Source of the DNA: Geobacteraceae bacterium
GTDB lineage: Bacteria; Desulfobacterota; Desulfuromonadia; Geobacterales; DSM-12255
Length of the DNA: 62,745 nucleotides
NCBI GenBank assembly: GCA_013377075.1
Contig: JACABD010000021.1
Span: forward strand, 1 to 62,745
Direction: 5' to 3'
Below are positions 6,697-47,634 of the stretch, one piece after another. A program made the position numbers and the translations under genes. Under the pieces are notes generated by a model. It was not told where the DNA came from. It saw only the letters and a program-made list of their open reading frames with translations, and did not search any database. The stretch's first letter is position 1; the number at the start of each line of letters is the position of its first letter.

Positions 6697-6706
6697 TTAC
6701 ACGTAA
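6697..6706. promoter_or_regulatory. TTACNNGTAA palindrome at large terminase stop
   Basis: TTACACGTAA contains the terminase stop codon (minus strand TAA at 6699-6697) and ends upstream of the spike-base ribosome binding site. It is one of the copies that sit both at the 3' end of one gene and in the leader of the next. Confidence 0.45.
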
Positions 6707-8139
6707 GCGTATTGTACGGGTTTAATCTCTCGGCGGGAAGACATGCGTTTGGCACCGAACGTAGCCCCGTTATCGGCGTGCAGGCAGGCGTACTGCAAAC
6801 TATCTGCCAGGTCGGACCACGGGTGGGTTTTGTCGGGGGTTTCGTCCGTCTCGCCCTTGGTGTTGGTCTTGTAGCGGTACTTCGACCGCATGGCCATGAT
6901 GAGTTTGGTGCAGCCAGGGTCGAACAGGATGGAGGGTTTGCCGTCCACGGTCCTTGTGAGATATCCGTCCACCGCAGCTATCCGTGCAGTTATCGTATTG
7001 GTTAACGCGGGTTTGACCACGAACCCCTCGTTCTTAAAGATATCGGCAACGGTGCGCTCGTCCGTCTGTGCCCGCTGGAACGCTGCAGGGTCGATGATGA
7101 TTATCTGGGGGCGGCTTCCGTACTTGGATGCAAGTAAGGGCTTAAGCATTTCCCGGCAGAATCGTAAAGCTCCCATTGACTCGCCTGTGATGGAGTCGTG
7201 CACCAGGAGTCTCCCCTGGTAGTCGAGCTGACAGATTGTGGCTGTCGGGGTTAGACCGGCGTCTACCCCGATTATTAATGTTGATGCCTGGAGGATAAGG
7301 GGGGATTTGGCAACATGGATATCCTGCTTGAATGAGCTGAACACGGGTTTACCGGCCAGGGACTTGCCGAACTGGGCGTTGATATACACGTCGATCCACT
7401 CCTGGCTCTTGCCCTCTGCCAGGTTGGAGTAATACTCGGACGGGAGATACTGCAGCCAGTCCGCTTCCTGGGAGAGCCCGGAGGGCTGGAAGAACACGTC
7501 GCAGTTCTTGGGTGGGTCTGTGAGCAGGGTTTCCCAGAAAGTGTCCAGGTCCGGGGGGTTGGTCATTCCCCAGATGTGTCGGTTAGAGGTGCCGTCATCC
7601 GTGACACAGCCACCAATAGGTAGCCCATCGGCGTCATTTCCCCACTCTGGACGAGGCGGCACAAGTGATTTGTCTGGGTAACGACCCAAACGACCTTGGA
7701 GCGCTTCGAAGATTTGCTGGTTGATTTCACGGAACTCGTCAAGCACTGCGAAACTGATCTGCAGCGAGAGCAAACGTCGTACGTCATTCTGATCCTCCAG
7801 GCCACGGAATAGAACCTCGCACTCCACGTCTGAGAAGCGCATGATGAACCGTTTCTGCACCTTGGCGAAGTTGCCCGCCTGGCCGTCAGGGAACCACTTC
7901 AAGAAGTCGGGGATGCTGGTGTCCTCCAACATCTGGTTCGTGTTACGCACCCATACACAGCGGCTGCGGCGTATGCCGTCCCGGCTCTTGGCCATCTGCG
8001 CTGCGTGGTAGGCGATCTTCATAATCCCGGCGCTGGTCTTCGTAGAACCCACCGGGCCCACGATCAGGGAAATAAACGCCTCGCTGGCCAGGAACCCTGC
8101 GGCGGAAAGTGGGGGTTCGAATTTGGTCAGGTTATTCAT
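6697..8139 (-). CDS. terL: Terminase large subunit
   Basis: The 480-residue product is the packaging motor that pumps DNA through the portal and cuts concatemers. The N-terminal ATPase shows Walker A GPVGSTKTS at residues 28-36 and Walker B FAVLDEFRE near residue 134. The C-terminal RNase H-fold nuclease shows the three acidic sites: IIGVDAG, IIIDPA and HPWSDLADSLQYA. Length is normal for the family. The ATG overlaps the stop of the HExxH gene (ATGA). Spike genes lie between terminase and portal, a less common insertion between packaging genes. Confidence 0.92.
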   Translation of the reverse strand: MNNLTKFEPPLSAAGFLASEAFISLIVGPVGSTKTSAGIMKIAYHAAQMAKSRDGIRRSRCVWVRNTNQMLEDTSIPDFLKWFPDGQAGNFAKVQKRFIMRFSDVECEVLFRGLEDQNDVRRLLSLQISFAVLDEFREINQQIFEALQGRLGRYPDKSLVPPRPEWGNDADGLPIGGCVTDDGTSNRHIWGMTNPPDLDTFWETLLTDPPKNCDVFFQPSGLSQEADWLQYLPSEYYSNLAEGKSQEWIDVYINAQFGKSLAGKPVFSSFKQDIHVAKSPLILQASTLIIGVDAGLTPTATICQLDYQGRLLVHDSITGESMGALRFCREMLKPLLASKYGSRPQIIIIDPAAFQRAQTDERTVADIFKNEGFVVKPALTNTITARIAAVDGYLTRTVDGKPSILFDPGCTKLIMAMRSKYRYKTNTKGETDETPDKTHPWSDLADSLQYACLHADNGATFGAKRMSSRREIKPVQYAYV

Positions 8140-8964: not shown

Positions 8965-9165
8965 TTACACAAGCGGCTTAGTGTATAGAACTGCGTAGGC
9001 TTCCAGTTGTTTCTCTAATACGGTGACACAAAGCTGCTCCTGCTTATTAAGTGGTTCTTTGGCCTTTAATAAGGCCGTCGCTGCGGACAGGGTTAGCGGG
9101 TCGTCAGTCAGCCGCCACAGTAATAAGCCCTTTTGCGCCAGGTCGTGTATAGCTTGTAGATGCAT
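8965..9165 (-). CDS. Small hypothetical protein at head of the late unit
   Basis: The 66-residue product (MHLQAIHDLAQKGLLLWRLT...) is mostly helical and Leu-rich. It would be the first gene of the minus-strand late unit. An upstream in-frame GTG at 9210 would add 15 residues. Neither start has a good ribosome binding site, so the start is uncertain. No family recognised. Confidence 0.5.
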   Translation of the reverse strand: MHLQAIHDLAQKGLLLWRLTDDPLTLSAATALLKAKEPLNKQEQLCVTVLEKQLEAYAVLYTKPLV

Positions 9166-9274
9166 ATAGAAAGTGTATACGCCAAAACCTGGAAAATTTT
9201 TGAAAAACACTTAATATAATAGTTGACTAAAGTGTAGGGGTATCGTTTTGGGGGTGTTGTTGTGAGCGAGATAG

Positions 9275-9321
9275 CCCCCCTACCCCCCACGCGCCGCGCC
9301 GTGGTCCATCCCCCCTCCCCC
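9275..9321 (-). other. Potential G-quadruplex (four G-runs of 5-6 on minus strand)
   Basis: The plus strand reads C6-TA-C6, a 21-base GC-rich insert, then C6-T-C5. On the minus strand this is four runs of 5-6 G with short 1-2 base loops and one long loop that is itself partly self-complementary. It lies in the divergent promoter region. Confidence 0.4.
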
Positions 9322-9356
9322 TCGCGCGTGCCTGCGCCTGTACGCGTGGCACATGC

Positions 9357-9366
9357 TTACCCGTAA
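9357..9366. promoter_or_regulatory. TTACNNGTAA palindrome upstream of first early gene
   Basis: TTACCCGTAA within ACATGCTTACCCGTAAACAC, 67 bp before the ATG of the first plus-strand gene. The flanks match the ACATGCTTAC context seen at 15838 and 23136. Confidence 0.5.
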
Positions 9367-9433
9367 ACACAAGATACATGCAAGCGCCCCTTGTATGGCG
9401 CCTTTGCCATGCTTTTTTATTGGAGATTGAATC

Positions 9434-9916
9434 ATGGAACTTGCAGTTAACGAAACCATCATCGCCCCCTTGACTGCCAAGGGTGAGGAATCCACCGGCA
9501 ACATGAAAGCCGCAGTAGTGCTCCGTGAAGCCAGCACAATGGCCCTGATAAGCGCCGCAGTGAACGGCAAGGGCGCCGTGCGGAAAGTTGCCATAGCTAA
9601 CCTGTCCGGCTTGCAGTCCGTCGATAAGTTCACCTCTTGCGATGCGCTGGATGGCGCCGAATGGGGGGATTTTCTCGCCGCGCTGGTTGGTGAGTTCGGC
9701 GTGGCTGATTTCAACCGCGCGACCATGCGCGGCAAGCACGGCGCGGGTTCGTACATGGCGACGGTCCGTAGTGCGCTGGTTGTCAAGTTCAATCGGGCAG
9801 AGACTGTCAAGGCGCAGGAAACCGCCCAGAAAAAATTGTCCCGTGCGCAGGATGTTGCCGCGCATGTCACTCGCTTGCAAACCGCCCGTCTGGAATCGGA
9901 AAGCGAAGCCAGCTAA
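9434..9916 (+). CDS. Hypothetical early protein
   Basis: The 160-residue product (MELAVNETIIAPLTAKGEES...) has an Ala/Val-rich helical N-terminal half and a C-terminal stretch, about residues 120-160, rich in K, A, Q, E and R with coiled-coil character (FNRAETVKAQETAQKKLSRA). GGAG lies 8 bases before the ATG. It is the only gene between the divergent promoter region and the large non-coding block, and a strong hairpin terminator follows. I do not recognise the family. The isolated position with its own terminator suggests an immediate-early regulator, which is inference. Confidence 0.7.
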   Translation: MELAVNETIIAPLTAKGEESTGNMKAAVVLREASTMALISAAVNGKGAVRKVAIANLSGLQSVDKFTSCDALDGAEWGDFLAALVGEFGVADFNRATMRGKHGAGSYMATVRSALVVKFNRAETVKAQETAQKKLSRAQDVAAHVTRLQTARLESESEAS

Positions 9917-9935
9917 GCCCCCGCGCTAAGCCCCC

Positions 9936-9958
9936 GTAAGCCCCCTAGGGGGCTTTAC
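9936..9958. terminator. Bidirectional hairpin terminator
   Basis: GTAAAGCCCCC and its near-perfect complement form a palindromic hairpin (GTAAGCCCCCTAGGGGGCTTTAC region) with TTTA on the 3' side, 20 bases after the preceding stop codon. It should end transcription of the first early gene. The same CCCC-rich element is preceded by two partial copies (TAAGCCCCCGCGC, TAAGCCCCCGTAA). Confidence 0.6.
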
Positions 9959-9960
9959 CT

Positions 9961-10704
9961 ATGGCTCCGAGCCATTGGTAAGGCTAACCCCTTAACCCCC
10001 GCGCTGTGATCTCACGCGCAAACCCTTGATGGTGCTGTAGTGGCACCGCTAGGCGCATGTAGTGTGCGCCCTGCTAGTGGGAACCCTCATTAACAATTTA
10101 TCCCTTTGCCCATGCTCCAATTTACAAGGCGGTGCATGGTAGGTGACGCAAGTCACCCAGTCTTGAAAGCCGCAGGTGTAACCCTGCGGGATGTTAGACG
10201 CATATCACAGTGCCATTGCCGCGCATAACGTAAGCGCGGTTTAACGGGTATAAGTAGGACGACGGCAATTACAGCATGACGCGTGACAGGCGAACCATGC
10301 TTATCGAATTGACTTATCTTTCTCTACCGTGGATAACGCTGTAACCCTTTGGTTGTTCTTAGGGCGCAGATATGACGTGACGTAGTAAAGACACCGGTAT
10401 GACCGGATAGGCCGCATGGTGGTATTCCATGCGCAGGTATAGCGTTCACCTCAAAGCTACGTTAACGACAACCCCACAAGCCTAAGCACATTACATGTGT
10501 ATGGCTTACCTGCGACTGGCGCATCGCAGGGGGTTGCGATAGGTTTTCCCGTAATAAGAACGTGAGAGCCTATCGGAACTTATATTAATATTGTACTGTG
10601 GTTCTACACAGTGCTTTGGGACGACTCTGCCTGCCCCGAAGGGGCCATTCTTATTAAGTGTGGTGAAAAAACATCATAATAAAACTCACTAATAAGAGGT
10701 CGTC
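9961..10704 (+). ncRNA. Large highly structured RNA candidate (GOLLD/ROOL-like style)
   Basis: About 745 bases without any sizeable reading frame hold a dense set of perfect helices: ATGGC/GCCAT 9961-9975; GGTGC/GCACC 10031-10047; GGCGCA/TGCGCC 10052-10070; CCATGC/GCATGG 10110-10139 with GGTGAC-GCAA-GTCACC 10142-10157 (a GNRA tetraloop); CCGCAGG/CCTGCGG 10170-10189; CCGCGC/GCGCGG 10219-10239; AGCATG/CATGCT 10273-10301; AACGCT/AGCGTT 10335-10446 enclosing CGCATGG/CCATGCG 10413-10433. A three-way junction is closed by CAACCCC 10469/GGGGTTG 10530, with CGATAGG/CCTATCG 10537-10575, ACTGTG/CACAGT 10595-10612, GCCCC/GGGGC 10633-10645 and GACGAC/GTCGTC 10620-10704 after it. The GNRA loop sets the plus strand as sense. 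The density of nested, coaxially stackable helices far exceeds chance. Giant phage RNAs of the GOLLD and ROOL classes look like this, but class membership is unverified. Confidence 0.75.
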
Positions 10705-10738
10705 AACTCTGCTCTATAAGCATCTACAGGGCTCTTCT

Positions 10739-10784
10739 ACTATATATATATCTTTATATTAATGATATTATTATATTAAGAGGC
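10739..10784. other. AT-rich tract (possible DNA-unwinding element)
   Basis: A 46-bp stretch is almost entirely A/T, with (TA)n and repeated ATATTA units, in a genome that is otherwise GC-rich. It lies between the structured RNA and the cluster of TGTAGTGC repeats. Together these resemble a replication origin (AT-rich element next to repeats), though it could also be a promoter or the RNA's 3' end. Confidence 0.4.
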
Positions 10785-10812
10785 AAATCCACAGCCAAAC
10801 CTGCCGAGCAGC

Positions 10813-10856
10813 GTGCACTACAAATCCGCGCGCGTTTTCCACGCGTTGTAGTGCAC
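10813..10856. repeat. 11-bp inverted repeat GTGCACTACAA/TTGTAGTGCAC
   Basis: Perfect 11-bp arms at 10813-10823 and 10846-10856 flank a GC-rich centre that can itself pair (CGCG/CGCG). Each arm carries half of the TGTAGTGC-type palindrome found intact at 11029, 11072 and 11151, so it may be a split binding site for the same protein or a cruciform. Confidence 0.55.
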
Positions 10857-10902
10857 ACGCTCCTGGCAAACCTCTGCTTGGATGACTTTAATATCATAAT
10901 AA

Positions 10903-10962
10903 CGTAATAACCCTCTTGTAGACGCTTGTAGATGTTTATCGACAGTCTTATTACGGTTTTTT
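10903..10962 (+). terminator. Terminator-like hairpin CGTAATAA/TTATTACG + T-run
   Basis: CGTAATAA (10903-10910) pairs with TTATTACG (10948-10955), followed by GTTTTTTA. The stem is AT-rich and the loop long (37 bases), so termination may be weak. The loop contains two GTAGA units 10 bp apart (10918 and 10928). Confidence 0.35.
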
Positions 10963-11004
10963 ATTATCGACCCCGCTCTTTTTATTGCGGGAAACAGCGT
11001 TTTT

Positions 11005-11027
11005 GGGCCGTTTTTGGCCCTGTTTTT
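11005..11027 (+). terminator. Rho-independent terminator before the RHH regulator
   Basis: GGGCC (11005-11009), a GTTTTT loop, GGCCC (11016-11020), then TGTTTTT. It would end plus-strand transcription from the structured RNA before the regulator gene. Confidence 0.5.
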
Positions 11028-11028
11028 C

Positions 11029-11044
11029 TGTAGTGCGCGCTACA
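11029..11044. promoter_or_regulatory. Operator-like palindrome TGTAGTGCGCGCTACA
   Basis: Near-perfect 16-bp palindrome (one mismatched pair), first of three copies upstream of the ribbon-helix-helix gene. Confidence 0.5.
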
Positions 11045-11071
11045 TATTTTGCCTGTTTTTTAGGCACTGCG

Positions 11072-11087
11072 TGTAGTGCGCACTACA
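11072..11087. promoter_or_regulatory. Operator-like palindrome TGTAGTGCGCACTACA
   Basis: Perfect 16-bp palindrome, second copy; 43 bp after the first. Confidence 0.55.
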
Positions 11088-11150
11088 GAAAGATAAGTAG
11101 AAAACAGCCTCGTTCGTTTATCTTTTCGTGCGTGTTTGTTGCCTACATTC

Positions 11151-11166
11151 TGTAGTGCGCACTACA
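11151..11166. promoter_or_regulatory. Operator-like palindrome TGTAGTGCGCACTACA
   Basis: Perfect 16-bp palindrome, third copy, 45 bp before the ATG of the ribbon-helix-helix gene and overlapping the place where its -35 region should be. Autoregulation by that protein is the simplest reading. Confidence 0.55.
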
Positions 11167-11185
11167 CGCTTGAGGTATCATTTGT

Positions 11186-11195
11186 TTACCTGTAA
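11186..11195. promoter_or_regulatory. TTACNNGTAA palindrome upstream of RHH gene
   Basis: TTACCTGTAA, 16 bp before the ATG and directly before the ribosome binding site AAAGGA. The regulator's leader therefore carries two different palindromic site types. Confidence 0.5.
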
Positions 11196-11211
11196 CCACG
11201 AAAGGAAAGCA

Positions 11212-11547
11212 ATGAAACCCACATCTGTGCGACTCACTGACTCTGAGCGCGAAGCCCTTGAACTTCTGGCTGCGAAGCAGGGGACAACCGTGTCTGCGCT
11301 GGTGCGTATGGCAGCAATGAAGCTGGCGCAAGCCTCTGGTGCGCAGCGTAGACAGGCCGGTACCACGCTCACCACAATAACGCTGTGGCCCTTTGACCGC
11401 GAAGCACTGGTCAGCTACATGCAGCGCAACGACTTCGACACGATGGCAGAAGCTGCGGGGGCAGCGATGCGCGTGGGCCTGCAGCACCGTGGGTATCTGC
11501 AACCTGAGACAGATACGACCTACGACCAAGAGTGGGCTATCAAGTAA
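11212..11547 (+). CDS. Ribbon-helix-helix DNA-binding regulator
   Basis: The 111-residue product starts KPTSVRLTDSEREALELLAA, the beta strand and first helix of an Arc/CopG-type fold, followed by GTTVSALVRMAAMKLAQ as the second helix. The fold dimerises and inserts a beta ribbon in the major groove. A 60-residue C-terminal extension probably oligomerises. I chose ATG 11212 because AAAGGAAAG precedes it; a longer frame back to 11128 would cover the operator region. Three 16-bp palindromes upstream suggest autoregulation, and perhaps control of the early unit. Confidence 0.75.
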   Translation: MKPTSVRLTDSEREALELLAAKQGTTVSALVRMAAMKLAQASGAQRRQAGTTLTTITLWPFDREALVSYMQRNDFDTMAEAAGAAMRVGLQHRGYLQPETDTTYDQEWAIK

Positions 11548-12797: not shown

Positions 12798-13448
12798 ATG
12801 AAATCAAATCTGCATCGCAGGGTGGTGGGTACTACCTACCAAGCCAATGACCGGAGCCTGCTGCCCCCGTGGAAGCTGAAGTACAAGGCGCAGGGTAACG
12901 CGCGTGTCCGTATTGCTGACTGCATGTTGGCAGCGGACGAGCTGGTGGCCCACGTAGAGGGCGATGATGTAGGTAAGTGGCGCGATAGCGTCTGGTTGTC
13001 TTTCGGTGCGCCTGACACTGACCGCGACGAGCAGGAGATGCTGGACATTGAGCAGCAACGCTACCGCGCCTGGGCAGAGGGTACGGCTTATCCCAACGAG
13101 AACCGTGGCCGTTACTACGACAGCACGTACGACGACAGCCGCTACGAGTACCAGGACTCCATCGGTTACCAAGACCAGTCTTGGCCCTGTGATGTGGTGC
13201 ACAGCGTCAATGGGTATGACGTAACCCTCTACCACACCAACCGCTACCACGTAGAGCATCGCTACTCTTTCATTGGCTGCATCGAGCTGTTGCCAGAAGC
13301 TATGCAGTGGCAGATCACGTACCTGCCTGTCCGTGGAGAGCAGGAGTTCTACCAATTCGATTACCTTGATACGTCTATCGAGGCAGCAACGCAACTGCTG
13401 ATGATGTTGCACAAACTGGATACGTCCAACCTGGAGAATGACCAATGA
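12798..13448 (+). CDS. Hypothetical protein
   Basis: The 216-residue product (MKSNLHRRVVGTTYQANDRS...) has a basic N-terminus and a central segment exceptionally rich in Tyr and Asp (RYYDSTYDDSRYEYQDS). The C-terminal half looks beta-rich. The start sits inside GTGCTTACATG, with GAGG 8 bases before it. Its stop overlaps the next ATG. No family recognised. Confidence 0.65.
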   Translation: MKSNLHRRVVGTTYQANDRSLLPPWKLKYKAQGNARVRIADCMLAADELVAHVEGDDVGKWRDSVWLSFGAPDTDRDEQEMLDIEQQRYRAWAEGTAYPNENRGRYYDSTYDDSRYEYQDSIGYQDQSWPCDVVHSVNGYDVTLYHTNRYHVEHRYSFIGCIELLPEAMQWQITYLPVRGEQEFYQFDYLDTSIEAATQLLMMLHKLDTSNLENDQ

Positions 13449-14521
13449 GCTTCTATTTTCCCCCCTCCCCCGCAGGGACCGGTAAGTCAATCATCATTGC
13501 AGAAGAAGTAAGCAACACCGGCCCCGAGTACGCTGCTATGCAGCTTGCTGTAAACAAGATTATTCTGGGCGCAACACCACTGGTCAACACCGCGCCCGTG
13601 GCCGCGCCCAAACCCAAGGCCCTGGCCCAGAAGGTTATGACCGTGCAGCTCAAGTCCAGCAAGCCCACCACGCGCTTCAACGACGAGCAGGCAGCGAAGG
13701 TGGCACGCGCATCCCTTGGGGATGAAGGCGTAGGTGCTTACGTGAAACTGTTTAGCGACCCGATGAACCCTGCACGCCAACTGCTGGCCAAGTCCGGTGC
13801 GCCGTACCAGTACCACAAGAAGCACACCATGCCGTACATCGACCGTGGCCCACGCTTCCTGCCGGTAGGGCTGTACGAGGAATACCGCGACGAGATGCGC
13901 GCACTGCGCAGCGAACTGGCTGCAGACAAGGCAGCGGTTATCCCTAAGTACGACACATACGTCGCGCTTGATGTTGCTTACAGGAATGCAAAAGCAGCCG
14001 CGCTTGGTAATGTTGGACGGGCAACCGCTGCCGACTACCCCACGGCTGAACAGTTTGAGAAGGCCATCGACTTCCAGGTGACATTCATGCCCCTGCCTGA
14101 CCGGACCCACGCTGTGTTCGATGTGGACGAGGAAGATCAGAAAGCACTGGACACGTTCATGGAAGACGCGCTCAAGCGCGCGGTGGACGACCTGCGTGAA
14201 CGGATTACCACGCCGCTGCATGACCTGATCGACAAGCTCAACGAGACGCCCAAGAAGAAGGGCAGCGGGGACGAGGACGGTAAGGGCACAGGTATCTTCA
14301 GGGATACCAAGATCACCAACGTGACGGATGCCGTGGCCATCGTCAGGAAACTGGCGATGGAAGACAGCGAGGTGCTGGCCGCATGTGACATGGTTGAGAG
14401 TGCCATGAAGCCGGTGGTTGACTACCCCGAGGCAGTGCGCCAGTCCCCCGTAGTGCGTGAGGCAGCAGCCAAACGCTTGGCAGATGTTGCGTCCAAGATG
14501 GGCGCGTTCTTTGGGGGATAA
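13445..14521 (+). CDS. Hypothetical protein, early region
   Basis: The 358-residue product has a Pro/Ala/Lys-rich N-terminal 75 residues and a middle domain with HTMPYIDRGPRFLPVGLYEE. Long helices follow around residues 230-275 (acidic, Lys/Asp), and the C-terminal part is also helical. An N-terminal AGTGKS resembles part of a P-loop, but the required first Gly is missing and no ATPase follows. It lies 1.4 kb before the MoxR/VWA pair and may belong to that module; this is only neighbourhood inference. Confidence 0.65.
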   Translation: MSFYFPPSPAGTGKSIIIAEEVSNTGPEYAAMQLAVNKIILGATPLVNTAPVAAPKPKALAQKVMTVQLKSSKPTTRFNDEQAAKVARASLGDEGVGAYVKLFSDPMNPARQLLAKSGAPYQYHKKHTMPYIDRGPRFLPVGLYEEYRDEMRALRSELAADKAAVIPKYDTYVALDVAYRNAKAAALGNVGRATAADYPTAEQFEKAIDFQVTFMPLPDRTHAVFDVDEEDQKALDTFMEDALKRAVDDLRERITTPLHDLIDKLNETPKKKGSGDEDGKGTGIFRDTKITNVTDAVAIVRKLAMEDSEVLAACDMVESAMKPVVDYPEAVRQSPVVREAAAKRLADVASKMGAFFGG

Positions 14522-39168: not shown

Positions 39169-42100
39169 TTATTGCCGCTCGGCAAACGCTGCCAGATGGT
39201 TGTATGCAGCTTGCTTCTTGGTGCCCAGCTTGACACCACTTCCGTCTTGGCGGTTCTTGCCTTCTTCGCGTACAGCCTTGCGCCACTCTTGCTCTTTCTT
39301 CCCTGTGATGGGGTTCTCAGGGTGATCAGCGTTGAACTTGGCAATCGCATTACGGGCCGCAGACATATCCCCTCCACGTAGCCCTTCTTCAAACTGCTTG
39401 GCAACGGATGCCTCACGGGCGTTGATGGCGGCTTCGGTGTTCTTCACCGCCTTGGTACCCTCGTAGTAGTCCGACTCGGCCATCGTCGTCATGCCCATGG
39501 CGCGGGATGCAATGTCCAGCGCGTCGAGCTTGGTGCCGGTAGGCACGCCCTTACCGTCAGTCATACCTTCTACAGCGTAGCGCCCGGACTTGATAAGGTC
39601 GGCTCCAGCCTTGGGCAGCATCTTCTCTGCGCCCTTGGCCCAGTCACCTTCGTTGAACCGCACGATACCGTCGTACATGTTTGCAGCCATGCCGCCCACC
39701 GGCCCCGCCAGCGCGCCTGCGATCTTGTTCACTTGGTCCTGGCCGGTCTTGCCGTCGAACTTGGTGTACTGGCCGAACGGAGAGGCAACGTCGCCCAGAC
39801 CGATACGGGCCGATACGTCCCAGCCCCAGGCGGCAGGTATGCCTTTGGTGAACACGTCTGCAATTTTCTTGTCGCCGGTTATGCGTACCAGACCGTTGCG
39901 GAATGCTGTCTCTGCATCGCCCTCAGGATCGTCCGGGTCACGGAAGGCGTTGGCCAGGGCAAACGCTACTCCAGCCAGCGGCATCCCAGTGATACCGGCA
40001 GCCAGCCCAGAGGTAGTGAACAGGTAGCCCACAGCGGCCATGGCCTCTTTGTCCCCGGCAAACGCCTTCTTGGCGTTGGTGGCCAGCAGGTAGAGCATGG
40101 CTTGTTGGTACTTGCGGAACTGGAATACCAGCTTGGCCAGCGGTACGCCGCCACCTTCGCGCATGATGCGGGCTGTACCTTCCGTAGAGTAGTCGAACTG
40201 TGTGGATACAACGGTGTTGTATGCGTGTTCGGTTGCTTCTTCGTGGGTCATGCCGTCAGCAATTCCAAGGCGGTACGCTGCCAGAGCAGTGGATGCCCGG
40301 TTCACCAGCTCAACTTGCTGGTTCGCCCAACCCATAACGCGGTTGAACTTGGCCATCTTGCGGTTGCTGTCCTCTGCAATCATGGCGTTGTCGTGCTGCA
40401 GACCTTCGTCCACAATACCGCGCTCCATCAGGTTGCGCATCATCAGCCGCTCGCTCTGCTTGGGCAGGGAGGTCTCGTTGATACCGCTCCACATATCGAA
40501 CTTGTCGCCCTTCATACGGGCGTCTTTGACCATGCCGATGGCGTCCGCAGAGGCGGCAGTCAGCGCGGAGGTGGCTTTCATCAGGCCGTGTTTTGCAGCA
40601 AGGATAGGGCCGGTAACCATCCAAGGCTGGGTGGCGTTAATCAGCACGTTAGAAGGCGACATACCGAGGTGGTAGACCCACGATGCGCCGCTCAGTGCGT
40701 CCTGTACCGGCGTGTCCGTGAACTTCATGTCCAGGGCCATACGCTGCTCCATCTCGCGGTGGATGTGCTGCAGGTCGATGTTGCCCTTGGCTTCCTGCTT
40801 CATGCGGAACATGGTGTCGGCCAGATCGGTGGCGTACTGCAGGCGCGAATTGTAGAAGGCACTGCTTTGACCAGTGCTGGCAAAGGCGCGGAGCATGTCG
40901 GGGTTGGCCCCCTCGATACCCTTGCGTGCAGCCTCGCGGCGCAGAGCGTGCATCTCTGGCAGGGAGCGCAGGAAGATATTGGCCAGGGCCTCGTTCAGCT
41001 TCTTGGTCACGTCGCTGTCCGCACCGAACTGGGTTTCCATAACGTGGCCGATAGCAGACAGCGTATCCTGCGAGGTGCCCCGCATACCGTCAATGTGCTG
41101 GTCGGTCATATCGAAGCGCGACTCAAGTCCGGCAGCGTCGTACTCACGTTTGGCAGCGTTGGCTTCGCCCTTGTTCTCATGGGCGGACACCCGGTAGTGC
41201 TGGCCAGACTTGCGCAGTTCTTCCAGCTCGTCTTCCAACTTACCGCGTTCTTCGCCCGTGGCGTCCTTGATCTTGTCTTTCAAGTCTTTGAGCTTCTGCG
41301 ACTCACCGATAACCAAGTAGCTACCGAAACGCACAAGCGGGAAGTACGGGCCCTTCATCTTCTCAAGCTGCTTCTTGTACTCTGCCACAGCGTCGTCGCG
41401 GTCCTTTTGGATTTTGGCAATGCGCTCCAAGGCTGCTTCTTTCTCGGCTTGCGTCTTGGCTTCCTCGGCCTGCTCGTTGGCCTTTTCAAACATCTTGCGG
41501 TAGGTGTTATCCACCAGCGCGTTGTACGCTGCCCCCCGGTCCGCCCACGACTTGGCCAACTGAGCCTTGGCTTCCTGGTACACAGTTTTGGCTTCGGGCG
41601 TCATGGCATCGTACTTGGCCTTGAGCGTGTCGTACTTGGCTTTATCGGCTGCTTCCAGGTGGCTGTTGGGCGTACCGTGTACGCCTGGAGTGAACTTCTC
41701 GTCAGGGTGAATCTGCTGCATGGTGGCGTCCATCATCACAGCGTCAAGGCCCTTCTTGATTGCTTTGGGCAGCTTGTCCCACTTAACTGAGACGTTGTGG
41801 TACTCCATGGCAGCAGCCATGCGGGCTTTGCGCATCATCTGCTGGAAGCCAATGTACTGCCCGAGGGTCTTGAGCTTGTCGCCAAACTGCTCTTTAAGCT
41901 GCTCGTTGGTCAGCATCTTGGGGGACAGGCGTGTAATGAAGTCGGTGACCGTGGCCCAGTTGTCTTTCACCTTGGGCGGCAGCATTGCGCGAACGTGGTC
42001 GTACGCGGCTGTAACAGTGTCTGACGCCTCAACGGCTGCAGGAACAGCCTTAGAGAACTTGGTAGCCAGTACATCCGGGGAGAAGCTGCCGTCCTTGCCG

Positions 42101-45100
42101 GGGTTAGCCCCTGTCTCCCGCACCGAATTAATGTGGGGTACAACTCCGCCCAGCGCGCGGGTAAGACGGCGGCGTACTTCGGACAGCAAACGGTTCGTGG
42201 CTGCTGCTGGAATGCCTTCAAGGCGTGTGTAGCGGTTGAAGCGGGAGCTGGTAGGCGCTTCCGAAGCCATCCCTTCCTTCTTCAGGTACTGGAACGCAGT
42301 GCTTCCGTATCGTGGGCCGTCAATGGCGACCCCCCAGTTTCCATCTTTGTTCTGCCAAGCAGTTACCGTCTGGATTGCCTGTCCGATTCCGTCGCTGTAA
42401 AGACCCACCGTAATTGCGTTGAGTCCTTCTCCGATTCCGTTGTTGCCGTCGTCGTACCGGCTATCGGCGCGGGTAGTGATCCCGAGGAAGTTACCGTATG
42501 TCTCGTCGGGGCCCCAGGTAAGGGTTTCTGTTCCTGGCTTGGAGTCATCGCGGTTTGATATCTTTGCGCCCACTTGGCCAGTTCGCTTTTCAGACTTGGC
42601 ATAGTAATCTGCGATCTCCTTGTCGGTAGCGTTCAACTTCGTTCCGAGTTCCCGCGCGCCATTCGTCACTTCGATATTGGCAGCACCGTACGCCAAATTT
42701 ACCAGATGCTGCGCAGTCATGGCAGGCAGCTTCACTCCGCCGAAGCGGGACCGTACGATATCGGAGAAGACTTTGGCCAGCTTGGACAGCCAATATTGCA
42801 CCGTACCATGCGCCGCCCGGTCATCAGGCTCAACGCCTTCTTCTGCGGCAACCTCTGCTGCGTAGGCCAACAGTTCTTCGTCTGCGTGGGCAGAGATCGT
42901 GCCAGCAGCTTCCATGCGCCGCTTGGCTTCGTCAAACACCCGGCGCTCCAGGGAACCCTTGGGGGCGTTGGCCCACGCCTTAACCGTGCCGATAAGCACA
43001 GGGAGGTTGGCCCCGAACTGATTGGCCAAGCCAATGTGCACACCCAATTCGTGCAGGAACACTGCCAGCTCTTTGCCCTTGGGGATGTTGTCCGCAATCA
43101 GGTGCATGACACGGGGGTTCTTGGGGTCAACAAACCCCTTGGCCCCTGCAATATCCGCAGCGGATATGTGCGGGTTAGCTGCCAACGCATCTGCCTCAGA
43201 CTGGTAAAAGCGCGCGACACCGCGCAAGGGCCCACGGGCCACCACAGGGAACCAGTTGTTGAATACGGCCTTTACTGCAGCAACCGTGTTGCCGGTTACT
43301 CCGCCAGAGGCTTTGGAAAACTTGGCGCTGCCAGGCGCTGTGTCTTCTTGCTTACCAACCATATCCCGGTCAGTACCGTCATTGATGTTCCCGCTTCGGG
43401 TTGTTGTGGCTTCCGTGGTTTGTGTCTCAGTTGCTTCTTTGAACAGCTCGCCTGTCTTGGAAACTTCGTCTGGTAGCACAAACATCATGCCGCCGTTGAA
43501 CTTGTCGATCTCAGGAATCACATTGTTAACAAAGGCGTCTTCGGTGGTGTTGATACAGCCAAAGCTGATTTTGTTATCTGCTGCAGTATCAGATTTGAGC
43601 CGATCCGAACGATGCTCCGATTGGTCGCCAAGCCACACAGAGTGCACGGCAATGTTTGCAGTGCCGCGTGCCGTTTTCTGAGTAGTCTCTACCAAGTGGA
43701 GAATCTTTCCCCCGGTGTACTCATGGTCCTCGACAGCGCGCAAGTGAAAAGTACCTGCTGGTGTTATCTTGGCCCCTCCTTCAAGAGACGCCTTGCTGCT
43801 GAGTGTGTCGCCTTTGTCTTTGCCAAACAAGGCGGCAGACTGTACCCGTACAGTTCCGTCTGCGTTAAAAACGTGCAGCATCCCGTTGGGCTTATCGGCA
43901 ATCATAAAGCCCTTGCCTGTCTTCATAGCAGCGGGAGCAACTGCTTCATACACCTGCACAGCAGCGTCAGACATTTTGGCACGGGCTTCAGCAGGAACCT
44001 CTGCCCGCAAGGCGCGGGTCTGGGTAGTGATTGTGGTCACTGCCTGCGGCACGTTAAAGTCAAAGTGTGCCTTGTACTGCATGGGGTTCATAATCACCCC
44101 CACCGCAAGAACCCCGTTTGCTACAGCCTTGATTGCCTCGCGGATCGCGGCACTTACTGCCTGCGCGCCCTTGTTTACAAACGCAATTACATCTTGTGTA
44201 ACACGGTCTATAAACCGTGGGTCGCTCCGTTCCGCACCGTAATGGGCCTCAAGCGCTTCTACCTGCTCATCGGGTAGCTCGCTTACAACGCTCTGTACCG
44301 CTTCGGCGGCAGGCGTTACTTGGGTTTCGGTTGCCCCTCCGGTAGCAGTTCCCCCGCCCGGGGTATCGCCGCCAGCGCTTCGCTGCTCGGCTCCGCTCCG
44401 TCCGCTATCTTCCACATTAGCTTTAGAAGCGCTTCCAGTTCCGCCTTCTGTGACTGCTTTTGCGGCTGCTGCTTTTGCTTCTGCATCTTGGGCCTTTTTG
44501 CGTTCTACTATTTCCGCCCTATCGTACGCCTGCTGGGATTCTTTGGCAAAAGTACGGATAGCAGCCCGTGTCTCAGGGGTAGCGTCGGGCCCGGCATCCA
44601 TATGGTAACGAACCGCTTCCATAATCTTGCCAACAGCGTTATCGTTGTGCGCGAGCCCGTTATAGGCAGCCGCCAAATACCCTAGATAGCCTAGTTCGTG
44701 CGCGGTTGCCTTTCTGAAATCCCCCTTGTACTTGCCGGATATCCCTTTGTAGATGGGGTGGTCTTCAAGGCGCTGGGGTTTGGGCGCGGCCACATCGGCG
44801 TTGCTACCACCAACGGAGTTGACCAGCTTACGGTTTTCAGAAAACTCGTTGTTGGCCGCATTTTCATGGTCAATATCATCGCTGCTCAATGCAGCTTCAT
44901 CTTCCGGCACGCCTTCGGTGGGCTCGGCGTTGTGGGCTTCTACGTTGTCTTCGGGGGCAACGCGATCATGGCCAATGTCGCCTTCGGCCAAATCCTCTAC
45001 GGTTACATCAGGGGATGCCAGGAAGCGGTTCTTGACCTCACGGGAAATACCAATGGCGTTACGGACCCGGCTGACTTCGGTGTTCGATTTACCAGGTTTG

Positions 45101-47634
45101 GCAAGGCCCACCTTCTCGGCAGCAGCTTGATCAGATAGCGGTGGGATGCGGTTACCCTGCTCGTCCACGCCCAAGGTCAGGCGAATGGCGTGGTGCATAC
45201 GGGCGTCCAGCGGCTCCAGCAGGAGCTTCAACGCCTTGAAGTCAATCGACTTACCAAGAACAGCAGTCTTGCCCTGCAGCTTGTTCACAAGGGTTGATAC
45301 CTTGGGCTTTGGCGCGGACTCGGTTGTGCTTGCCTTTTCCTTCTTGGGCTTGGTCGTAACTACTGGCGCAGCGGCGGGCTTAGTCTCGGCAGCGGGCTTC
45401 GCAGGTACGGCATCTGTTCCAGTCTTTGCTGCCACAGGAGCTGCTGCGGGCTTAGATTCAGTTCCTTTGCCAGCAGTCTCTGATCCAGCGTCAGCCTTGG
45501 TGGTCGCGGTTGGGGCGGCTGCGGGGGCAGCGGCAGCGGGCTTTGTTTCAACGACTTTGGCTGTGACGGGCTTTGGTGGGTCATTCTTGGTAGTCTCCGC
45601 TTCGGCAGCTTTGGCCTCTGCCAGTTTCTTGGCGTCTTTGATCGTGACGTTGACGTTCTTTACTGCGCCAGAAATGCGCTCCTTATCGTTGGAAGCAAGT
45701 GCAGAACGAAGCTCCCCCACAAGAGAGGTGTGTTGGGTTTCGGTAATCAGGCCAGAGGCTTTCGCCTCGTTCATTTCGACAGTGGCGCGAAGCACAGGGT
45801 GCGACACTTTCGGCTGGCTAACGGTAGCCAGCTCGTCCTGCGTGAACAGGGTTTCGTGGGTGGACTTAACCAGCGCGTCGTGCTTGGCTTGTGCCTCACG
45901 CTTCTCTTGGTCTTTCTTCTGCTGCTCGGCCTGAACAGTCTTAGCGCGCTCCATAGCCAACTGAAGGCCAAGGTCAGGTTGAGCAAGCTCTCCGTTCGTA
46001 GCTACGTTACCGCCACCGGCAGGGGCAAAGGCTGGACCGTTGGGCCCACCAGGGCCAGTCTTACCAACATCGGCAGCAGGACCAACCTGCATAACATCGT
46101 CCAGGCCAGGACGGCCAGGGACAACAGGCATCTGCAAACCGCGACCACGCGGGTTCACCCCCGTATTTGGTTGCTGCTCTCCAAGCGCCTGATGGTCGAA
46201 GTCAACGCCAGACTCGCCCGAGCCATTAGCCCCGGCAGAAGTTGACCAGTTAGGTGCAGTGTCCTGCAACGGGGCTACGTACCCCGGCTGCTGCGGCTTG
46301 GTCAAATCTTCAAAGCCCTGCGAAGTGCTGAACGCGGGGTTGGTAACGTACCCGTACTTAACCGCTTCTTCTGGTGTGATTTCCTTGCGGTCAATCATCC
46401 CCTGCAGTGCTGCCTGCCGCTTCATGTCCGCAACATTGCTCGGTCCGGCTCCGCCTTGGGCCTTGTCTCCAAACGTGGCCTCGTACTCAGACCGCAGCAT
46501 AGAACTTCCATCCGGGAAGGTAACAATGTCGTTGGGCCGGTGGTTGGACAGACCGAGCTGCAACAAGTTAGCGGGGGGCGCAGACGGAGCGACAGGAAGA
46601 CTCTGCTTACGGAAATTGAACGCGCCGCCCATAGCTGCACCGGCAAGCCCGCCTTCGATACCAGCGCGGAGTACGCCATCACCAATGTCTTTGCCGTCAG
46701 CGTAGTTCTGCCACGCTTGTTCTTGCATGGACTGCGGGAACTCTTGCACGCCACCTTCCACTGCCATACCGCCCAATACACGCCGTGCGCGAGAGGCTTG
46801 GCTCTCCACGCCTGTGGGCTTTCCCCCGGCCATAGCTGTCTCAGGGGTTTCCAGGCCGAACTTGTGGGCCAAGCGACCACCGCCTGCAGCAATCAACATG
46901 TCTACAGTGCCGGAGCCAAGAGCTGCAATAGCGCCCTTACGTGCGTCATCGCCCTGGTAGTCGTCCATGGCCTGGCCAGCCTGGGTCAACCCTTCTCCCA
47001 TACCACCAAGTACCGGAGACGCCCAGTTCTCGCCTACTGTGCGGGCAATAACTCCGGGGCGAGCTATGGCAGCAGCAACATCCCCGGCTCCACCGGCTAC
47101 ACCAGCAGCACGTCCAATAAGTCCAAGACCCTTAGAGATAGCACCGCCCGCCAACATTGCAGGCGCAGACTCAATCGTCTGGTTGACCGTGTACATCGGG
47201 TTGCGCAAGTACGCCTTAGCAACATCCAGCCCGCTGGTGTTGGGGTCTTGCCATGCCTGCTGCACGTCAGCTTGGCTGCGGTTGTACTGGTCAGAGTAGC
47301 CCGTATCCTTAGCCCACTTCCCTGGCTGAAACCCGGTAGCCTCGCCTAGAGCGTCGGCAGCAGCACTGAACGGGCGATACCCGGTAGCAAGGGCAACCGG
47401 AATGTCTGCAAGCCCTGTAGCGATGCCAGGAAGCTGCTGGATACCAGCCTTGAGGGAACGCCCCATATCCCCCATCGTTCCCTTACCAGCACCATACCCA
47501 ACCTTGTGTGCCACCTCCAATGGGTCCATCCCTACAGAAGCGGCGTAGTGGTGCAGCAGCTCGTTATCGGACAAGCCCTTCAGCTCCGCAGGGGCGGAGT
47601 CACGAATATCAGAGAGTGTGTAAATTCCGCCCAT
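39169..47634 (-). CDS. Giant polyvalent internal virion protein (PLxRFG family) with L,D-transpeptidase-like domain
   Basis: At 2,821 residues this gene takes 13% of the genome. The N-terminal 400 residues are Gly/Ala-rich with hydrophobic segments. Residues about 650-800 are Ala/Lys/Thr/Pro linkers. Near 1240-1400 is a YkuD-like domain (ITPAGTFHL, His1331 in AVHSVW, Cys1360 in ISFGCINTTEDAF), which acts on peptidoglycan cross-links. HELGVH (His1528, Glu1529, His1532) marks a zinc-peptidase-like domain. YFPLVRFGSY at about 2097-2106 is the PLxRFG motif of huge podophage virion proteins. Such proteins are packaged and ejected to help DNA cross the cell envelope. AAAGGC precedes the ATG. Confidence 0.85.
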   Translation of the reverse strand: MGGIYTLSDIRDSAPAELKGLSDNELLHHYAASVGMDPLEVAHKVGYGAGKGTMGDMGRSLKAGIQQLPGIATGLADIPVALATGYRPFSAAADALGEATGFQPGKWAKDTGYSDQYNRSQADVQQAWQDPNTSGLDVAKAYLRNPMYTVNQTIESAPAMLAGGAISKGLGLIGRAAGVAGGAGDVAAAIARPGVIARTVGENWASPVLGGMGEGLTQAGQAMDDYQGDDARKGAIAALGSGTVDMLIAAGGGRLAHKFGLETPETAMAGGKPTGVESQASRARRVLGGMAVEGGVQEFPQSMQEQAWQNYADGKDIGDGVLRAGIEGGLAGAAMGGAFNFRKQSLPVAPSAPPANLLQLGLSNHRPNDIVTFPDGSSMLRSEYEATFGDKAQGGAGPSNVADMKRQAALQGMIDRKEITPEEAVKYGYVTNPAFSTSQGFEDLTKPQQPGYVAPLQDTAPNWSTSAGANGSGESGVDFDHQALGEQQPNTGVNPRGRGLQMPVVPGRPGLDDVMQVGPAADVGKTGPGGPNGPAFAPAGGGNVATNGELAQPDLGLQLAMERAKTVQAEQQKKDQEKREAQAKHDALVKSTHETLFTQDELATVSQPKVSHPVLRATVEMNEAKASGLITETQHTSLVGELRSALASNDKERISGAVKNVNVTIKDAKKLAEAKAAEAETTKNDPPKPVTAKVVETKPAAAAPAAAPTATTKADAGSETAGKGTESKPAAAPVAAKTGTDAVPAKPAAETKPAAAPVVTTKPKKEKASTTESAPKPKVSTLVNKLQGKTAVLGKSIDFKALKLLLEPLDARMHHAIRLTLGVDEQGNRIPPLSDQAAAEKVGLAKPGKSNTEVSRVRNAIGISREVKNRFLASPDVTVEDLAEGDIGHDRVAPEDNVEAHNAEPTEGVPEDEAALSSDDIDHENAANNEFSENRKLVNSVGGSNADVAAPKPQRLEDHPIYKGISGKYKGDFRKATAHELGYLGYLAAAYNGLAHNDNAVGKIMEAVRYHMDAGPDATPETRAAIRTFAKESQQAYDRAEIVERKKAQDAEAKAAAAKAVTEGGTGSASKANVEDSGRSGAEQRSAGGDTPGGGTATGGATETQVTPAAEAVQSVVSELPDEQVEALEAHYGAERSDPRFIDRVTQDVIAFVNKGAQAVSAAIREAIKAVANGVLAVGVIMNPMQYKAHFDFNVPQAVTTITTQTRALRAEVPAEARAKMSDAAVQVYEAVAPAAMKTGKGFMIADKPNGMLHVFNADGTVRVQSAALFGKDKGDTLSSKASLEGGAKITPAGTFHLRAVEDHEYTGGKILHLVETTQKTARGTANIAVHSVWLGDQSEHRSDRLKSDTAADNKISFGCINTTEDAFVNNVIPEIDKFNGGMMFVLPDEVSKTGELFKEATETQTTEATTTRSGNINDGTDRDMVGKQEDTAPGSAKFSKASGGVTGNTVAAVKAVFNNWFPVVARGPLRGVARFYQSEADALAANPHISAADIAGAKGFVDPKNPRVMHLIADNIPKGKELAVFLHELGVHIGLANQFGANLPVLIGTVKAWANAPKGSLERRVFDEAKRRMEAAGTISAHADEELLAYAAEVAAEEGVEPDDRAAHGTVQYWLSKLAKVFSDIVRSRFGGVKLPAMTAQHLVNLAYGAANIEVTNGARELGTKLNATDKEIADYYAKSEKRTGQVGAKISNRDDSKPGTETLTWGPDETYGNFLGITTRADSRYDDGNNGIGEGLNAITVGLYSDGIGQAIQTVTAWQNKDGNWGVAIDGPRYGSTAFQYLKKEGMASEAPTSSRFNRYTRLEGIPAAATNRLLSEVRRRLTRALGGVVPHINSVRETGANPGKDGSFSPDVLATKFSKAVPAAVEASDTVTAAYDHVRAMLPPKVKDNWATVTDFITRLSPKMLTNEQLKEQFGDKLKTLGQYIGFQQMMRKARMAAAMEYHNVSVKWDKLPKAIKKGLDAVMMDATMQQIHPDEKFTPGVHGTPNSHLEAADKAKYDTLKAKYDAMTPEAKTVYQEAKAQLAKSWADRGAAYNALVDNTYRKMFEKANEQAEEAKTQAEKEAALERIAKIQKDRDDAVAEYKKQLEKMKGPYFPLVRFGSYLVIGESQKLKDLKDKIKDATGEERGKLEDELEELRKSGQHYRVSAHENKGEANAAKREYDAAGLESRFDMTDQHIDGMRGTSQDTLSAIGHVMETQFGADSDVTKKLNEALANIFLRSLPEMHALRREAARKGIEGANPDMLRAFASTGQSSAFYNSRLQYATDLADTMFRMKQEAKGNIDLQHIHREMEQRMALDMKFTDTPVQDALSGASWVYHLGMSPSNVLINATQPWMVTGPILAAKHGLMKATSALTAASADAIGMVKDARMKGDKFDMWSGINETSLPKQSERLMMRNLMERGIVDEGLQHDNAMIAEDSNRKMAKFNRVMGWANQQVELVNRASTALAAYRLGIADGMTHEEATEHAYNTVVSTQFDYSTEGTARIMREGGGVPLAKLVFQFRKYQQAMLYLLATNAKKAFAGDKEAMAAVGYLFTTSGLAAGITGMPLAGVAFALANAFRDPDDPEGDAETAFRNGLVRITGDKKIADVFTKGIPAAWGWDVSARIGLGDVASPFGQYTKFDGKTGQDQVNKIAGALAGPVGGMAANMYDGIVRFNEGDWAKGAEKMLPKAGADLIKSGRYAVEGMTDGKGVPTGTKLDALDIASRAMGMTTMAESDYYEGTKAVKNTEAAINAREASVAKQFEEGLRGGDMSAARNAIAKFNADHPENPITGKKEQEWRKAVREEGKNRQDGSGVKLGTKKQAAYNHLAAFAERQ

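Follow-up and report, generated by a model that had tools for sequence, protein, structure and literature searches.

Genomic Setting of the Candidate RNA

The window analyzed here, i.e., the whole stretch of DNA under study, is a complete contig of 62,745 bases (G000:C41), one of 126 in the assembly. The contig is a phage genome, which encodes a terminase large subunit, a DNA polymerase, a helicase, a primase-like protein, and tail proteins. The largest phage ORF comprises 2821 codons (39169-47634, minus strand), and the whole window contains no tRNA genes. The features around the terminase gene and the first early genes are collected in Table 1.

Table 1. Features of the terminase-side and early region of the window, in order of position.
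Feature	Positions	Strand	Remarks
Terminase large subunit gene	6697-8139	-	Divergent from the RNA; anchor for finding relatives
Terminator-like hairpin with TTTTTTATTG tail	9393-9412	+	Just 5' of the small ORF; consensus match only
Small early ORF, 160 aa	9434-9916	+	Directly 5' of the RNA
Large structured RNA candidate	9961-10704	+	Folding against shuffles; no frame above 56 codons
boxA-like CCTCATTAACAA	10085-10096	+	Inside the RNA, on the RNA strand
Hairpin GGTGAC-GCAA-GTCACC, GNRA loop	10142-10157	+	
Long-range helix AACGCT (10335-10340) / AGCGTT (10441-10446)	10335-10446	+	Minimum-energy fold, by eye
Three-way junction: AACCC/GGGTT around AAGCC/GGCTT and CCTGCGA/TCGCAGG	10470-10535	+	Same junction, with compensatory changes, in L002
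3' stem CGATAGG/CCTATCG	10537-10575	+	Directly after the junction; GCATGGG/CCCATGC at the same place in L002
Hairpin GCCCC-GAA-GGGGC, weak T-rich tail	10633-10645	+	Possible terminator; consensus match only
Palindromic TGTAGTGCGCACTACA repeats	11021-11170		Between the RNA and the next gene; seen by eye
Arc/CopG-like repressor-type protein gene	11212-11544	+	After the repeats

The small ORF has neither a PHROG hit nor a relative among viral contigs, and its product shows no BLASTP similarity to the small protein of L002, the locus with the nearest terminase relative (83%). A consensus scan detected no promoter-like site just upstream of the RNA on the plus strand. The next gene starts about 500 bases beyond the RNA; its product matches phrog_4113 (E 1.2e-6, no function) and the Arc-like phrog_3431 (E 1.9e-4). 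For the ORF at 13445-14521, a search of viral contigs gave no relative; a similar ORF, seen by eye, is encoded in L002. The palindromic repeats lie in a region (10801-11200) that folds well on both strands, with z scores of -5.6 on the plus and -11.0 on the minus strand in a 400-base window. Relatives carry other repeats at a like place, e.g., words of the TTGCAAAGCGCTTTGCAA type in L101 and GGATAATAG in L138; these and the repeats of the window are possible origin or repressor sites.

Noncoding Character and Folding

It had been predicted that the early region of the phage holds a large structured RNA, with no sizeable reading frame on either strand, and this is borne out: none of the six frames holds a stop-to-stop frame of more than 56 codons within 9961-10704. 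This stretch coincides with 9927-10682, the only long ORF-free region of the 62.7-kb contig and the sole stretch of at least 120 bases that lies outside stop-free frames of at least 70 codons. On the plus strand, the predicted fold has an energy of -278.3 kcal/mol, compared to -235.1 (sd 8.5) for shuffled sequences (z -5.1), and is more stable than all 100 shuffles; the minus strand reaches z -2.5, with 1 of 100 shuffles as stable. With slightly wider borders (9917-10760), the plus strand scores -6.1 and the minus strand -2.3 and -2.8 in two runs. Good folding of both strands, as seen at 10801-11200, is what a DNA palindrome should show, and the stretch is unlike one in this respect.

Among 158 windows of 400 bases, the lowest plus-strand z score belongs to 10401-10800 (-6.3), which extends 96 bases beyond the stretch, followed by the palindrome region. 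The 400-base segment starting at 9961 is not among the lowest ten and the one from 10301 has z -2.3, so that neither is extreme alone. The helices that had been named, i.e., the GNRA hairpin, the three-way junction, and the long-range closing helices, are all present at the given words: CAACCCC (10469) faces GGGGTTG (10530), AAGCC (10478) faces GGCTT (10503), CTGCGA (10510) faces TCGCAG (10524), and GACGAC, which occurs at both 10258 and 10620, faces GTCGTC (10699). The evidence for structure is the shuffle test together with the strand difference; a list of perfect helices of 5-7 bp is not evidence in itself. In the 5' half, GTCACCCAGTC starts at 10152 and CACAGTG at 10206, and L002 carries both motifs in this order as well. 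If L002 is taken as a guide, the end of the 3' domain may lie near 10579. The scan behind the possible terminator at 10633-10645 found 6 such sites, compared to 3.1 expected.

Comparison With Catalogued RNA Families

The RNA had been proposed to be either of the GOLLD/ROOL type or a new class. The first half of this proposal is not supported as regards family membership, since the whole window has no match at gathering thresholds to any Rfam model, GOLLD and ROOL included. Nor does either of the two appear among the 12 matches up to E 10 that a relaxed search returned for 9850-11210: nine of these lie at 10985-11169 and are mostly miRNA models on the palindromes, the sole match inside the stretch is an Enterococcus sRNA (E 9.7), and all 12 are far below their gathering scores. 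Likewise, 19 relative loci yielded no match at gathering thresholds (10 loci, 143 kb; 9 loci, 108 kb, namely L002, L100, L101, L103, L006, L104, L183, L190, and L193), and the L138 and L002 leaders produced 2 and 1 matches, respectively, which is the chance level. Membership in GOLLD, ROOL, or another Rfam family was therefore rejected. The second half, a new class, gains support from the covarying leader RNAs that lie near the same place in relatives, as described below.

At the DNA level, no homologues of 9917-11200, the L188 leader, or the L002 leader were found in isolated phages, and among 13 genomes of the family, its own included, the window sequence matches only itself. A literature search, which was not exhaustive, brought up no paper recognized as describing this RNA.

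Structured Leaders in Terminase Relatives

Relatives were collected through the terminase from viral contigs, which are metagenomic contigs only: initially 10 loci, then 80 kept of 326. From the 80, 25 were chosen by hand and folded together with the window, and 18 were read; many of the others lack upstream sequence. Isolated phages are distant, the best being Pseudomonas phage Rollin with 40% terminase identity, and a terminase alignment over genome contigs gave 81 stretches, none of them a relative.

In several relatives, a long leader that is structured and noncoding immediately precedes a small gene, both reading divergently from the terminase. Fifteen leaders, chosen and delimited by hand, were folded, with z scores of -6.0 (L002), -4.7 (L100 and L103), -4.0 (L006), -3.5 (L101, L161, and L119), -3.3 (L104 and L118), -2.9 (L117), -2.6 (L098 and L102), -1.9 (L147), -1.8 (L114), and -1.1 (L111). 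The z score is lower on the leader strand in 13 of the 15, the other strand folding better in L102 (-2.9) and L006 (-5.1), and folding is modest in L114, L147, and L111. In L008, L128, and L145, the stretches before the small gene fold unremarkably. In L132, L139, L145, and L162, the small gene is preceded by a sigma-70-like promoter (consensus matches to 9 to 11 of 12 positions) and, by eye, by no comparable leader, which implies that the RNA can be dispensed with. Upstream of the L188 and L183 leaders, the leader strand showed no promoter-like site. By eye, L102 displays a short version of the arrangement, consisting of boxA, a hairpin with a T-run, a stem, and the gene.

The small proteins behind the leaders belong to phrog_1448 (function not known) in five of nine tested cases, while those of the window and of L002 fall outside it; a tblastn search with the small protein of L172 matches 299 isolated phage records. 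Two other regions with high z were considered as the RNA and discarded, L101 6560-7300 and L138 6180-6920, which are repeat-rich and lie downstream of the small gene, with the leaders located elsewhere. In L132, L139, L145, L162, and L134, regions free of ORFs that follow the small gene were also rejected as this RNA, since by eye they consist of terminators and repeats. On the other side of the small gene, upstream of it, L162, L132, L139, L145, L104, and L138 share a stretch of the form TATA..AAAAATAGG..ACGTAA followed by a C-rich tract; it also occurs in relatives without the RNA and is possibly a cos/pac site or a phage promoter. In L010, the terminase ORF (9020-11338, 772 codons) has an insertion after GPVG that looks intein-like by eye, and repetitive ORFs of the ARAVAHDN / ANLSGANL type lie near it.

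A Covarying Leader Family

Starting from the small protein of five loci, 15 loci were collected, of which 11 distinct 3' domains form the alignment A4; L179 was left out, its stretch being identical to that of L181. The rows of A4 have in common a terminator-like helix, an inner hairpin, a 3' stem of 13 bp, and, with variants in some rows, the words GCAAAG and CCCATAAC. In 10 of the 11, the terminator-like helix is followed by a U-run of at least five. A terminator scan of L188 and L183 did not call the U-run helix, which its loop limit of 8 excludes.

The structure of A4 (11 sequences, 32 pairs) was drawn by hand from L191 and includes a GTTATG/CATAAC pseudoknot. Within it, 97.1% of 349 cells are paired, 36 cells have changed on both sides, and double changes occur in 11 of the 32 pairs. 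None of 500 shuffles reaches any of these measures, and structures slid along the alignment attain at most 45.6% paired cells. The pseudoknot is paired in 100% of cells, four of its six pairs being invariant and two varying on one side, with no double change, so that its putative pairing is backed by conservation, not by covariation. For the longer RNA of about 480 nt (9 sequences), a structure of 83 pairs in 17 helices contains 33 pairs with double changes, a result reached by 0 of 500 shuffles and favored by the fact that RNAalifold derived the structure from the same alignment.

A covariance model built from A4 (R1) was searched against 74 sources and identified seven more loci at E of at most 0.0015 (L118, L104, L114, L161, L117, L111, and L119). 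Its training rows represent one protein neighborhood and match by construction. L006 served as a held-out test: R2, built with the new loci, finds it outside the training set with E 1.6e-9, in the leader just before the small gene. Over 92 sources, R2 has 13 matches with E below 1e-3, each lying on the strand that diverges from the terminase; besides L006, these are 11 training sequences and L172, whose sequence here duplicates a training one. Members lie between 0.9 kb (L104) and 7.3 kb (L111) from the terminase, which means that "the same site" is to be taken loosely, and in L114, L117, and L111 the RNA lies 5.4-7.3 kb away rather than adjoining the terminase. The pattern GTTATG..GCAAAG..CCCATAAC occurs in 29 stretches, 7 of them in contigs already in the set; of the 22 tested with R2, two match (L229 and L254). 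Judged from these alignments, one family of putative leader RNAs covaries convincingly. For the copy in the window, covariation is limited to a single relative, L002.

The Window RNA and Its Closest Relative

The window and L002 share the 3' three-way junction and the following stem. Across helices chosen by eye, 24 pairs were compared, of which 6 have changed on both sides and none is broken. The junction has the form AACCC-arm-CCTGCG..CGCAGGGGGTT followed by the stem, shows compensatory changes, and is represented by these two sequences; upstream of it, both have GTCACCCAGTC..CACAGTG. Scans of viral contigs for the two shared motifs gave 81 and 19 stretches, and only the contig of L002 appears in both. 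The other 80 junction matches were rejected, as the context is missing by eye. Chance accounts for 18 of the 19 GTCACCCAGTC..CACAGTG stretches: 16 lie in long frames, and L194 and L205, which are the same sequence, lie at a gene boundary. In 141 genomes of the order, the junction pattern hits the window and one other locus, L093, which was judged unrelated by eye.

The covariance models do not recover the window (best scores of 7.8 bits with R1 and 7.7 with R2, E about 0.2, in each case away from the expected place). For L002, R1 gives a weak match (18 bits; E 4e-4 in 1.9 kb, 0.19 in 874 kb) and R2 none. Accordingly, the window RNA is not filed in the R1/R2 family. It lies on the same strand as the leaders and between the terminase side and the early genes, but behind the small ORF, whereas in relatives with a leader the RNA is directly 5' of the small gene. 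We claim a looser kinship of strand, neighborhood, and similar build: the window RNA would be a two-sequence type of its own, apparently tied to the leaders by position, a degenerate boxA, and the L002 junction. The evidence that belongs to the window copy itself is its folding, its position, and one relative.

BoxA Words on the Leader Strand

A published gamma-proteobacterial boxA consensus is GYTCTTTAANA (PMC5725501). NusB/S10 are recruited by boxA; the Nus complex is able to prevent Rho-dependent termination, but RNA folding is now regarded as its main task at rRNA (PMC4807359 and PMC5725501). The exact word GCTCWTTAACAA, a pattern whose W was set after seeing the window and L100/L102, is present at 8 sites in 7 terminase loci; every site is on the leader strand, at a distance of 866-1406 bases from where the terminase match starts. 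Five sites in four loci read GCTCTTTAACAA (L101, twice, L103, L104, and L161), which fits GYTCTTTAANA exactly, and in three loci (L100, L102, and L147) the boxA form is GCTCATTAACAA. In 1.98 Mb of loci, with overlaps counted twice, one other exact GCTCWTTAACAA occurs, in the early region of Yersinia phage fHe-Yen3-01. In this isolated autographivirus (L175 936-947), the word is an exact GCTCTTTAACAA upstream of gp1, and gp2 is similar to the small protein that the leader phages encode, as represented by L172.

In the window, CCTCATTAACAA at 10085 is the sole site on both strands with at most one mismatch to GCTCWTTAACAA. It differs at two positions from the published gamma-proteobacterial consensus, and at two mismatches to GCTCTTTAACAA the window holds 2 hits, compared to 3.3 expected. 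The counterpart in L002 is GCTCATTAAAAA at 5893, one mismatch away from GCTCWTTAACAA. With one mismatch, 15 hits occur in the 1.98 Mb, including those of the window, L002, L005, L127, and L171; the words at L005 951, L127 4715, and L171 411 (minus strand) lie on the leader strand, about 0.7-1.5 kb from the terminase. From these 15 hits, the chance of such a word in 744 bases on the given strand is roughly estimated at 0.003. The window copy of boxA is suggestive only.

In 3.2 kb around the 16S gene of the assembly, with a leader of 222 bases, no boxA match within two mismatches was found. In one genome of the same order, GTTCTTTGACAA occurs in the 16S-23S spacer, at 357 bases from the end of 16S. 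The lack of a boxA near the assembly's own 16S suggests either that the host given by binning is not the true host or that the boxA of the window is inactive there; the host assignment of the contig may be a binning artefact.

A Model for the RNA and Its Alternatives

The plus-strand folding beyond chance, the covarying leaders, the boxA words in seven relative loci, and the junction shared with L002 can be combined in one model, to which we assign a probability of roughly 0.5: the stretch would encode a new type of large phage RNA, untranslated and made in the early region by the host polymerase with the help of Nus factors, whose 3' domain either ends the RNA or lets the polymerase pass. In this model, 9961-10704 would be read from the plus strand in early transcription and would belong to a loose class of long structured RNAs of this phage lineage, whose place is between the early genes and the control region on the terminase side. 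The RNA would be synthesized by host RNA polymerase, and the boxA near the 5' part would recruit NusB/S10, as in rRNA leaders. Nus recruitment could then keep the polymerase going through the long untranslated stretch and allow the RNA to fold properly; either of the roles described for boxA, termination block or RNA folding, would suit a long folded RNA. Finally, the 3' domain, i.e., the three-way junction and stem in the window and the terminator-like helix and stem in relatives, might mark the end of the RNA and gate read-through. Transcription, Nus recruitment, antitermination or folding help, and gating are steps that we infer from these sequence features, and the RNA would function either in cis antitermination or as a trans-acting RNA. 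As it is found directly before the small gene in relatives, a cis role in early transcription would be the ancestral one in this model.

Two alternatives overlap with this explanation. The RNA might be the product itself, accumulating and perhaps forming multimers in the manner of GOLLD and ROOL, with boxA and terminator serving its own synthesis. Its size and fold, its position away from any start codon in the window, and the helix with U-run that could end the RNA before the gene in relatives are in line with such a trans-acting RNA, and GOLLD and ROOL are phage RNAs of comparable size that assemble into cages made of RNA alone (PMC12286853). As the RNA adjoins the gene start in relatives, is absent from some of them, and has no Rfam match to GOLLD or ROOL, we regard this as a possibility worth keeping, though not the one to be expected. 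We are somewhat more doubtful about a pure cis leader, in which the first early gene would be attenuated by a choice between the terminator-like helix and the GTTATG/CATAAC pseudoknot, as a riboswitch or put-like element, the window copy being displaced or decaying. The conserved words, paired in all cells, would indeed form a pseudoknot with the terminator-like helix, and in relatives the start codon follows closely on the 3' stem; the short version in L102 also has a stem ahead of the gene. Yet the pseudoknot pairs hardly vary and show no double change, about 450-700 nt is long for attenuation, and the window copy is strongly folded without standing ahead of the small ORF.

The remaining explanations do without a functional RNA. 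A DNA-level element, such as a replication origin or packaging site whose inverted repeats mimic an RNA, would agree with the palindromic repeats at 11021-11170, which fold well on both strands, and with the proximity of the terminase; it is improbable given that the stretch scores -5.1 on the plus and -2.5 on the minus strand, unlike 10801-11200 (-5.6 and -11.0), and that the leaders of the relatives keep their pairs through double changes and G-U. Even less credible is functionless intergenic filler folding by chance: the covariation of the window copy is limited to one relative and its parts alone are not extreme in folding, but none of 100 shuffles is as stable, the junction is shared with L002, and this is the only long noncoding stretch in the window.

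Beyond the model of a Nus-assisted early RNA, a bolder generalization may be ventured tentatively, and we would not yet lean toward it: uncultured phages might possess a fast-evolving class of giant structured RNAs, for whose synthesis and folding the ribosomal boxA/Nus system of the host is borrowed, and which, as movable modules before or behind the first early gene, would be RNA machines of early infection and not simple leaders.

Relation to Known Systems

Few large structured RNAs of bacteria and phages are known, such as GOLLD, ROOL, and OLE, and their roles are poorly understood (PMC12286853). Since no catalogued RNA family was matched, the window RNA may be a new kind of large phage RNA. 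A covarying family near the terminase, combined with an rRNA-type boxA in several relatives, leads to the hypothesis that phages use the rRNA transcription and folding apparatus for long structured RNAs. Moreover, it tells where in phage genomes further RNAs of this kind can be gathered, making covariation, structure, and function testable.

Like GOLLD, the RNA described here is phage-borne, large, untranslated, and rich in helices. The 3' region of GOLLD is conserved and the 5' region less so (PMC12286853), which resembles the conserved 3' domain of the leaders; both GOLLD and ROOL are often found close to tRNA islands (PMC12286853). Many GOLLD RNAs exceed 800 nt, and ROOL measures 659 nt in the solved example. 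By contrast to GOLLD, the RNA here has no Rfam match and no nearby tRNA, lies near the terminase and the early genes, is associated with boxA-type words, and adjoins a small gene in relatives. With ROOL it shares size and phage origin, and differs in the missing Rfam match and in a window devoid of tRNA.

The put RNA antiterminators of phage HK022 are likewise structured phage leader RNAs at the start of early transcription, but put sites are far shorter than the RNA here. A further parallel is the boxA of rRNA leaders and of lambda nut sites (NusB/S10 antitermination): here, too, a boxA stands ahead of a long untranslated structured RNA, and the GCTCTTTAACAA of L101, L103, L104, and L161 fits the consensus exactly, whereas the window copy is off at two positions and the RNA that follows is not rRNA.
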